Origin: Stieleria magnilauensis
GTDB taxonomy: Bacteria > Planctomycetota > Planctomycetia > Pirellulales > Pirellulaceae
Reading direction: 5' to 3'
Assembly: GCA_007753675.1 (NCBI GenBank)
Contig: CP036432.1
Span: forward strand, 10,263,381 to 10,327,380
Length of the DNA stretch: 64,000 nucleotides
Of the stretch, positions 61,801 to 64,000 are shown piece after piece. Position numbers and translations under genes: made by a program. The notes below the pieces were generated by a model that worked only from the letters and a program-made list of their open reading frames with translations, ran no database searches and was not told the origin of the DNA. Position 1 is the first letter of the stretch. Each line of letters starts with the position of its first letter.

Positions 61801-62934
61801 ATGTGGGATGACTTTGATCAAGCGTTAGCCGAACTCCGTCGCCGCGGAAGGATGCGTCAGTTGCATCCGCGGCGGCTGGACGGTGTCCACTTGGTCGACG
61901 AAGCGGGCCGGCGATTGATCAACTTCGGCTCCAATGACTATCTGGGTTTGGCCTCGTTTGCGGCGTCCAACTCGATGCACGTTGATTCGGTCGGTGCCCA
62001 GGCCAGCGGGCTGGTCTGTGGCTGGACCGATCGGCATCAGTTGCTTGCTGAAGCGATCGCCCGTTTCGAACAGACCGAGTCGGCGGTCGTCTTCCCGACC
62101 GGATTCGCCGCCTGTTCGGGCACGGTGTCGGCGGTTTGCAGACAGGGCGACTTGATCCTTAGCGACGAATTGAACCATGCGTCGCTGATCGACGGTTGCC
62201 GGTTGTCCAAAGCCTTACGACACGTTTACCCCCACCGGGACGTCGACGCGGTCGCCCGGTTGCTGGCCGAGCACCGCAGTGCGTATCGCCGCGTTTGGAT
62301 CGTGACCGACTCGGTGTTCAGCATGGATGGACACGTCGCGCCACTCGGCGAACTGTGCGAGTTGGCCGCCGGGTACGACGCGACCCTGATCGTTGACGAA
62401 GCGCACGGGACCGGCATTTTGGGCGACCAAGTTTCGGGGGCGTGCGAAGCCTGGGGAGTGAAAGATCGCGTTCCGATTCGAATCGGAACACTCAGCAAAG
62501 CGCTCGGCGGCCAGGGCGGGTTCGTCGCCTGCCCCCGCGTCGTTGCGGACTATCTGGTCAACCACTGTCGTCCGTTGATCTACAGCACCGCGTTGTCGTT
62601 GCCTGCGGTCGAGTCGGCGCTGGCGGCGTTGGCGCATCCCGAGGAGATGCGTCGCCGCCGTGATCGGGTGTGTGCGCTGGCCCGAAACGTTCGCGCGCAG
62701 CTGGGGCTTGATTGCCCGGCGATCGAATCCGGGATACCGATCGTTCCGATTCCGATCGGAACGGACGCCGATGCCGTTGCGGCGTCGCAGCGGTTGTATG
62801 AACTGGGGATGTTTGTGCCGGCGATTCGACCGCCGACGGTCCCCGAAGGCCAGGCACGACTGCGTCTATCGCTCTCAGCCGACCACAGCGACGAAATGGT
62901 GCGTCGTCTGATCGAGGGTTTGCCGTCTTTCTGA
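61801..62934 (+). CDS. bioF: 8-amino-7-oxononanoate synthase-like enzyme
   Basis: 377 residues from the ATG at 61801 (a GTG one codon upstream is equally open). PLP enzyme of the alpha-oxoamine synthase family. The PLP lysine lies in TLSKALGGQGGF, and the DEAHGTGILG and NHASLIDGCR segments are conserved. BioF joins pimeloyl-ACP/CoA with alanine for biotin. Related enzymes (Kbl, HemA, SPT) share these motifs, but the length and FGSNDYLGLA start fit BioF. No other bio gene is in view, so a different condensation is possible. Confidence 0.87.
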   Translation: MWDDFDQALAELRRRGRMRQLHPRRLDGVHLVDEAGRRLINFGSNDYLGLASFAASNSMHVDSVGAQASGLVCGWTDRHQLLAEAIARFEQTESAVVFPTGFAACSGTVSAVCRQGDLILSDELNHASLIDGCRLSKALRHVYPHRDVDAVARLLAEHRSAYRRVWIVTDSVFSMDGHVAPLGELCELAAGYDATLIVDEAHGTGILGDQVSGACEAWGVKDRVPIRIGTLSKALGGQGGFVACPRVVADYLVNHCRPLIYSTALSLPAVESALAALAHPEEMRRRRDRVCALARNVRAQLGLDCPAIESGIPIVPIPIGTDADAVAASQRLYELGMFVPAIRPPTVPEGQARLRLSLSADHSDEMVRRLIEGLPSF

Positions 62935-63104
62935 TTGACGGACACTTTTCACAGTTTTGCTTGACTCTGTCGCGGAGTGACCAACCCTTCACCAGAACAC
63001 TCCAGTGCTTTCGCTGTCGTCAACGGCGATCTCTCGGAGCGTTCTTCCCGCGGTAGGTCCATCTCGCCATGGAGCTATCGAGAGAGGCGTGCGGCCGGAA
63101 ATCG

Positions 63105-63190
63105 GCGCTCGCGAACAGGCAAGCCGGCCGTGAGGCCGTGCACGCAAAGTGACGGATCTCGATAGAGATGGCCGCATTACCGAACGAACC
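63105..63190 (+). ncRNA. c-di-GMP-I (GEMM) riboswitch aptamer
   Basis: The sequence contains the hallmarks of GEMM-I in order: ACAGGCAAGCC, a hairpin GGCC-GTGA-GGCC capped by a GNRA tetraloop, GCACGCAAAG, a second hairpin GATCTC-GATA-GAGAT, and the ending GCCGCATTACCGA. These match the conserved CAGG(G)CAAACC, GNRA loop, ACGCAAAG and TACCGA of the Vc2-type aptamer. The position in the leader of a receiver-domain gene is fitting, since c-di-GMP riboswitches often control signalling genes. Confidence 0.82.
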
Positions 63191-63222
63191 AACCCCACGC
63201 CTTTGCCTGCGACCGACCGTTG

Positions 63223-63236
63223 CCGGCATGCCGGAG
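63223..63236 (+). promoter_or_regulatory. Expression platform hairpin over the ribosome binding site
   Basis: CCGGCATGCCGG (63223-63234) is a perfect palindrome whose right arm covers the first bases of GGAG (63233-63236), the ribosome binding site seven bases before the ATG at 63244. Alternative pairing could hide or free the site, so control is probably at translation. Confidence 0.65.
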
Positions 63237-63243
63237 TCAATTG

Positions 63244-63675
63244 ATGACTGCAACGAAACCGACCGCCGGTATCGCCGCCCGCCGCGGCGCCTCTTCCACC
63301 CAGTCGGATCAAACGATCTTGGTCGCCGACGATAGTCGCACCGTCTTGCGACTGCTCGATCGAACCCTTCGCGACGCCGGCTACAACGTCGCCTTGACCG
63401 AAGACGGCCGCCAAGCGGTGGAAGTGGCGACGGAAACCAAACCCGACTTGATCATCCTGGACATCAACATGCCGGTGCTGGACGGCTATGGCGTCTGCCA
63501 CGAGTTGCTCGCCGATGAAACCTGGGACCGCTCGACGCCCGTGATCTTTCTGACCAGCGCCGATGCTCCCCACCTGGAAACACTCGGCAGTCAACTGGGC
63601 GCGTTCCTGTCCAAACCGACCGAGCCCGACTTGCTGCTCGAAACCGTCCAAACGCTGCTGCGGCGCACCGTCTGA
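63244..63675 (+). CDS. CheY-like response regulator, receiver only
   Basis: 143 residues from the ATG at 63244 (GGAG seven bases before). After a 22-residue Thr/Ala/Arg-rich tail comes a receiver domain: acidic pair Asp29-Asp30, phosphoacceptor Asp73 (LDINMP), Thr104 and Lys124 (SKP) are all present. No output domain, so it acts as a CheY-type relay or through protein contact. Its leader carries the c-di-GMP-I riboswitch. The next gene starts 57 bases downstream and is likely in the same operon. Confidence 0.93.
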   Translation: MTATKPTAGIAARRGASSTQSDQTILVADDSRTVLRLLDRTLRDAGYNVALTEDGRQAVEVATETKPDLIILDINMPVLDGYGVCHELLADETWDRSTPVIFLTSADAPHLETLGSQLGAFLSKPTEPDLLLETVQTLLRRTV

Positions 63676-63732: not shown

Positions 63733-64000
63733 ATGCCCCAAAACCCGCAATTCACAACCGATGACGATCTCGATCTGAGCCTGGAAACGCTCGATCAGTG
63801 GGAAACCGAGTTGGACCAGTTCGCCGCCGGGATCATGAAACGTTTGTCACAGGCGAGCGGAAAAACGATCGACGTCAGTGGCCTGATCCCCCAGTCCCAA
63901 CTGGCCGCGGCACCACAGGCTGCGGCAACACTGGCTGATCCGGTCGACACGGACGACACGGACGACGAGAGCGAGGCGATGCAACTGCTGAAGTCCTTGC
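63733..64000 (+). CDS. Acidic protein of unknown function, cut by window end
   Basis: At least 89 residues from the ATG at 63733; the rest is beyond the right edge. The start is acidic (DDDLDLSLETLDQWETELDQF), followed by a short helical basic stretch and a Asp-Thr-rich segment. Lies 57 bases after the receiver gene on the same strand, so it is probably co-expressed and could be under the riboswitch. Nothing is recognised in the visible part. Confidence 0.7.
   Translation, partial: MPQNPQFTTDDDLDLSLETLDQWETELDQFAAGIMKRLSQASGKTIDVSGLIPQSQLAAAPQAAATLADPVDTDDTDDESEAMQLLKSL

Follow-up and report, generated by a model that had tools for sequence, protein, structure and literature searches.

A probable receptor-less c-di-GMP class I riboswitch at the head of a chemosensory operon in Stieleria, with sister switches ahead of Tad pilus genes

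Chemosensory operons of the Pil-Chp and Pix types, found in Pseudomonas and cyanobacteria, bring together genes for a receiver, CheW, an MCP, a CheA with a receiver domain and a REC-DUF4388 protein, DUF4388 presumably being the PATAN domain. The life cycle of planctomycetes alternates between swimming and attached cells. A class I c-di-GMP riboswitch ahead of a chemosensory gene is described in the Bacillus cereus group, where Bc1 lies upstream of the MCP gene mcpE and combines a GAAA loop and a receptor with a dual terminator (PMC11218506). A “type II” subtype of c-di-GMP-I, described in the same paper, usually lacks the receptor and carries a GYRA loop (PMC11218506). For the classical aptamer Cd1, loss of the tetraloop contact is reported to abolish binding (PMC9262584), and the residues contacting c-di-GMP in Vc2 are given as G20, A47 and C92 (PMC4744006; PMC11218506). 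Planctomycetes and c-di-GMP riboswitches are both mentioned in one article (PMC2864571), whose passages on them leave the two unconnected. Searches of open-licence literature by title and abstract opening yielded no c-di-GMP riboswitch before a Tad or chemosensory operon of planctomycetes, whose c-di-GMP riboswitches are, as far as these searches show, hardly described.

The window analysed here is a stretch of 64 kb of the Stieleria magnilauensis genome, and all its features given below lie on the forward (+) strand. Its only Rfam match at gathering level is an aptamer at 63108-63184, which covers 87 of the 87 positions of the c-di-GMP-I model RF01051 and scores 46.0 bits against a gathering threshold of 35 (E 8.2e-6). 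The initial annotation had recognised the GEMM-I motifs in order and had proposed a covariance-model search with RF01051 and a search for covarying homologues in relatives as checks. All the motifs are indeed present (CAGGCAAGCC, a P2 capped by GUGA, ACGCAAAG, P3 and UACCGA), the model score lies above the cut-off, and covarying homologues were found. At the equivalents of Vc2 G20, A47 and C92 in the model alignment, the window aptamer and 21 of 21 leaders carry G, A and C. The core also departs from the consensus in a lineage-specific manner: a conserved A is replaced by C in the four closest sequences, the window among them, and A/G is replaced by G/C at two core positions in 12 of the 13 genus sequences. 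Rfam score, contact letters and covariation identify the element as a c-di-GMP-I riboswitch, and c-di-GMP is its expected ligand. The genome encodes GGDEF proteins, with seven matches over the cut-off, of which two share a reading frame and the three best contain GGEEF, so that synthesis of c-di-GMP is expected. The reading that we favour, at a probability of about 0.83, is that a chemosensory operon has as its 5' leader a receptor-less class I riboswitch with a GYRA loop, which sets translation of the operon as part of one regulon with Tad pili.

An orthologue of the receiver gene that follows the aptamer was identified, at E 1e-20 or better, in 13 of 14 genomes of the genus, and all 13 loci carry an aptamer of the same clan upstream of it (best-model E 4.6e-11 to 1.4e-6, with 1.2e-5 for the weakest). 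In the family, a receiver profile recovered 31 of 198 genomes at E 1e-30 or better, namely the 13 of the genus and 18 others. Seventeen of these 18 loci were scanned: the aptamer precedes the receiver gene in eight, and none was detected upstream of the receiver and chemosensory genes in the remaining nine, so that some members of the family can do without the switch. A receiver search of the genome contigs returned 80 loci. Only L052 from Roseiconus nitratireducens, at 62% identity, was used, and it was counted once since it duplicates G156; the other 79 are receivers of at most 44% identity. Among the 21 aligned aptamers, 8 of the 18 predicted stem pairs show compensatory changes, that is, at least one sequence altered on both sides, for example columns 20/29 (GC in 11, AU in 10) and 44/82 (GC in 12, CG in 8, UG in 1); pair 49/76 has two broken cells. 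Because of these changes, the aptamer fold is, by the measure of the alignment, under selection. A separate case is locus L201 (genome G082), where an aptamer stands ahead of genes for a small protein, CheW, MCP and CheA and no receiver was detected; here the switch may have persisted after the receiver gene was lost.

That the aptamer lies ahead of a receiver gene was already stated in the initial annotation, whose picture of a receiver-only protein with an unknown acidic protein proved too narrow: by Pfam and synteny the two are encoded at the start of a chemosensory operon. The CheY-like, receiver-only protein of 143 aa (63244..63675; PF00072, E 7e-24) is followed by a small acidic protein of 94 aa in translation, which extends past the window end (63733..64000) and has no Pfam family over the cut-off. 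Then come, outside the window, CheW (PF01584), MCP (PF00015), CheA (Hpt, HATPase, CheW and receiver domains), a REC-DUF4388 protein and an FHA protein, and the whole set is presumably co-transcribed. With CheA, CheW, MCP and receiver genes and a REC-PATAN protein in one cluster, the array is Pil-Chp-like. The order receiver, CheW, MCP, CheA, REC-DUF4388, FHA recurs in 7 of the 8 aptamer-bearing loci of other genera, the contig of the eighth being too short, and also in 8 of the 9 loci where no aptamer was detected, the ninth contig stopping after CheA; the cluster is therefore older than the switch, or the switch was lost in places. Small proteins of similar plan to the acidic one can be seen by eye at the corresponding position in some of the other genera, and a tblastn search with the acidic protein matched only the window's own gene, L176 and L177. 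By eye, again, a stretch resembling the small acidic protein can be made out in a 287-aa protein encoded behind the switch in L226, some 0.8 kb along this region when read in the direction of the switch.

The leader outside the aptamer holds several further elements. A block TTGACT...GTGACCAACCCTTCACCAG at 62961..62995, conserved by eye in the genus leaders that reach that far, is a candidate promoter or operator; its pattern occurs once in the genome, its reversed control does not occur, and no sigma-70 consensus promoter was found. A near-palindrome at 62977-62995, GTGACCAACCCTTCAC in the window and TGAnACATGTnTCA-like in other genera, might be an operator or an unusual promoter. Closer to the aptamer, GGCGTG (63086..63091) and CACGCC (63196..63201) could form an outer stem enclosing it. 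The whole 5' and 3' flanks of nine genus representatives pair better with their own partners than with those of swapped species (mean -22.6 versus -19.5 kcal/mol; permutation p 0.011, uncorrected), some single swapped pairs being stronger than the own pair. Between this candidate stem and the aptamer, the sequence allows a small hairpin, GCCG-GAAAT-CGGC (63094..63106), whose place holds a hairpin in the predicted folds of L039, L041, L042, L045 and L046 and which is absent from the window's own minimum-energy fold. A hairpin between the aptamer and the Shine-Dalgarno (GCCnGCGAC/GUUGCnGGC; 63204..63228) is the candidate expression platform; each of the 13 genus leaders is predicted to form a hairpin here, its sequence varying from leader to leader, with individually weak z values (0.08 to -3.13).

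The Shine-Dalgarno itself, GGAG at 63233..63236, lies 7 nt from the ATG (63244), and CCGGAG or CGGAG precedes the ATG in all 13 genus leaders. A CCGGCATGCCGG hairpin overlapping this GGAG had been proposed in the initial annotation. The palindrome (63223-63234) does overlap the GGAG, and its role as the switch did not hold: the first half is altered in L039, L040 and L041 and the element is missing in L042-L044, so that, not being conserved, it is unsupported as the switch and was rejected as a conserved sequester of the Shine-Dalgarno. Pairing of the Shine-Dalgarno region with an anti-Shine-Dalgarno 5' of the aptamer found no support among nine representatives of the window's own genus (own -16.54 versus swapped -16.43 kcal/mol, permutation p 0.43). 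As an observation apart, the region 5' of the aptamer does pair more strongly with its own Shine-Dalgarno region than in swapped combinations in eight leaders of other genera (L158-L165; own -18.34 versus swapped -16.08 kcal/mol, p 0.014), the test pooled over 15 representatives giving p 0.004. A GGGACTCTGA-like element is the best duplex partner of the Shine-Dalgarno in only three of these eight (L160, L161, L164), and for this reason the pairing is kept as a side observation on the other genera.

Since no terminator-like site of the intrinsic type was found in 62900-63300, translational control appears most likely for this leader. An alternative would be a switch that attenuates transcription, through an intrinsic or a Rho-dependent terminator, and does not act on translation. 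Class I switches of the terminator type are on record, namely Bc1 (PMC11218506) and Cd1 together with pilM (PMC9262584), and the roughly 60 nt that separate the aptamer from the ATG are structured, which also counts in favour of such a device. The count of zero intrinsic terminator-like sites, and a Shine-Dalgarno at 7 nt from the ATG with predicted structure flanking it, nevertheless make attenuation unlikely. In the favoured reading, that of a leader setting translation, c-di-GMP would bind at the junction of P1, P2 and P3, the ligand-bound aptamer and the outer stem would be stabilised, pairing of the flanks around the Shine-Dalgarno would be altered, and translation of the receiver, perhaps of the whole operon, would be set thereby, with one or the other sign. 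The ON/OFF sign was not predicted by constrained folding: the pairing with the aptamer forbidden was about the same as with the aptamer forced, the forbidding constraint being ineffective. In the window, with 75 nt upstream included, forcing the aptamer costs about 3 kcal/mol relative to the unconstrained optimum (-91.4 versus -94.2).

The aptamer does not have the textbook combination of a GAAA loop with a tetraloop receptor. Type I members have a GNRA loop and a tetraloop receptor; the window aptamer has the loop, GUGA, and no receptor recognisable by a strict 11-nt motif, a pattern that a diverged receptor would escape, and it was consequently placed in the receptor-less subtype. This is also the rule in the family: the P2 loops of the 82 aptamers that could be parsed, out of 84 given, are GYRA in 76, GAAA in 4 and GAGA in 2, and none of the 82 contains the receptor pattern, again as the strict 11-nt motif, with which diverged receptors would be missed. 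Together with the changed core letters, the missing receptor counts against the favoured reading, given that Cd1 loses binding without its tetraloop contact. These many natural receptor-less aptamers provide material for work on P2 loop docking where the classical receptor is missing.

Variant families of the same clan raise the question whether the GEMM fold serves here another cyclic dinucleotide, such as 3',3'-cGAMP, or some other ligand. The c-di-GMP-I-GGC model RF03167 is the best clan model for 12 of the 13 genus aptamers, that is, for the window's locus and 11 others (RF01051 for the remaining one), 7 of the 8 aptamers from other genera score above its threshold of 59 bits, and core letters are off consensus in the window's lineage. 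All 12 genus aptamers fall under that threshold, however, and the window's locus (L035), with 39.8 bits, lies outside the family by its gathering score, whereas its 46.0 bits on RF01051 exceed the 35 required there. The letters equivalent to G20 and A47 are moreover kept in 21 of 21 chemosensory leaders, where the RF03167 consensus reads GCGAA, and the genome encodes GGDEF enzymes. A different ligand is accordingly quite improbable. A GGC-variant assignment of L004 and L052 was likewise rejected, the key position being A in both (aligned CGCAAA).

RF01051 matches the genome at four places, and the genes behind the three sister switches belong mostly to Flp/Tad pili. One precedes an Flp pilin gene (PF04964) followed by genes for a prepilin peptidase, CpaB and a CpaC-like secretin, the second lies ahead of a TadG-like protein and TadE, and the third ahead of a 214-aa protein of no known kind, with TadG-like and TadE proteins. 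That the window's element arose as a copy of the Tad-operon switch and has since decayed out of function here is very improbable, for although it has the lowest score of the four (46 against 55.5-62.3 bits) and changed core letters, the aptamer is kept in 13 of 13 genus orthologues, compensatory changes occur in the 21-leader set, the A/G to G/C core change affects both positions together in 12 of the 13 sequences of the genus, and L201 retains the aptamer where the receiver is undetected.

At least one switch is present in 116 of 199 genomes of the family and in 100 of 294 in the phylum sample. We classified 60 further switch regions (L178-L237), drawn from the best 66 places of the family scan, down to G046:C59, after leaving out the chemosensory loci G087, G028, G131, G066 and G046 and also G140:C9. 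In this non-random sample, to which several genomes contribute more than one region, Flp/Tad genes lie behind 47 of the 60 switches (43 by tblastn matches of Tad proteins and 4 more by an Flp pilin), an Flp-like pilin motif being found within about 1.1 kb behind the switch in 26. Among the other 13 regions, L201 lies ahead of chemosensory genes and 12 ahead of other or unassigned genes. The protein of about 214 aa encoded at L051:4906-5547, which has no Pfam match, is found repeatedly with a c-di-GMP-I switch on one side and TadG-like genes on the other, with homologues in L178, L182, L184, L193, L199, L218, L219, L227, L232 and L237. Elsewhere in the phylum, family f44 shows at least 14 c-di-GMP-I matches per genome in ten genomes of 2.9-4.2 Mb (G247, G268, G319, G350, G365, G392, G413, G444, G454 and G470), some of them closely spaced, for example G470:C6:102953 and 103133.

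As the sister switches stand ahead of Flp/Tad genes, one second messenger would set the surface organelle, the Flp/Tad pili, and the chemosensory array together. The likely role of the window's switch is thus in a regulon through which c-di-GMP links Tad pili with a Pil-Chp-like array, which, to go by the shared switch and the domain content, may act on the pili. For Pirellulaceae at large, we see even odds that class I switches form a surface regulon with two arms, one for Flp/Tad pili, beginning with the pilin gene, and one for the chemosensory array, both under RNA-level control by receptor-less aptamers, perhaps with an anti-Shine-Dalgarno upstream of the aptamer in other genera. If this holds, c-di-GMP sets at the RNA level both the organelle and its steering machinery; in any case the conserved switches name a concrete and testable regulon of Tad pili and a chemosensory operon.

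Compared with described elements, the window aptamer shares with RF01051 (GEMM) the full-length match, the letters equivalent to G20, A47 and C92 and the architecture of P2 and P3, and differs by the missing recognisable receptor, the lineage-specific core letters and possibly an additional outer stem and hairpin that surround the aptamer. With the RF03167 model it has the receptor-less shape in common, and it differs in an A where the RF03167 consensus (GCGAA) has G and in its score of 39.8 against 59 bits. From the “type II” subtype, with which it shares a GYRA-type loop (here GUGA) and the lack of a receptor, no decisive difference was found; relative to this subtype, the gene context is the new part. 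The operon behind it resembles the Pil-Chp and Pix types in the genes that it unites, whereas its gene order is different, small acidic and FHA proteins are added, and a riboswitch stands at its head. Like Bc1 (PMC11218506), the switch is a class I element ahead of a chemosensory gene, but in the window leader no terminator was found, and receiver, CheW, MCP and CheA genes lie behind it. The aptamer class being already known, the interest lies in the wiring, a predicted regulon of Tad pili and chemosensory genes.
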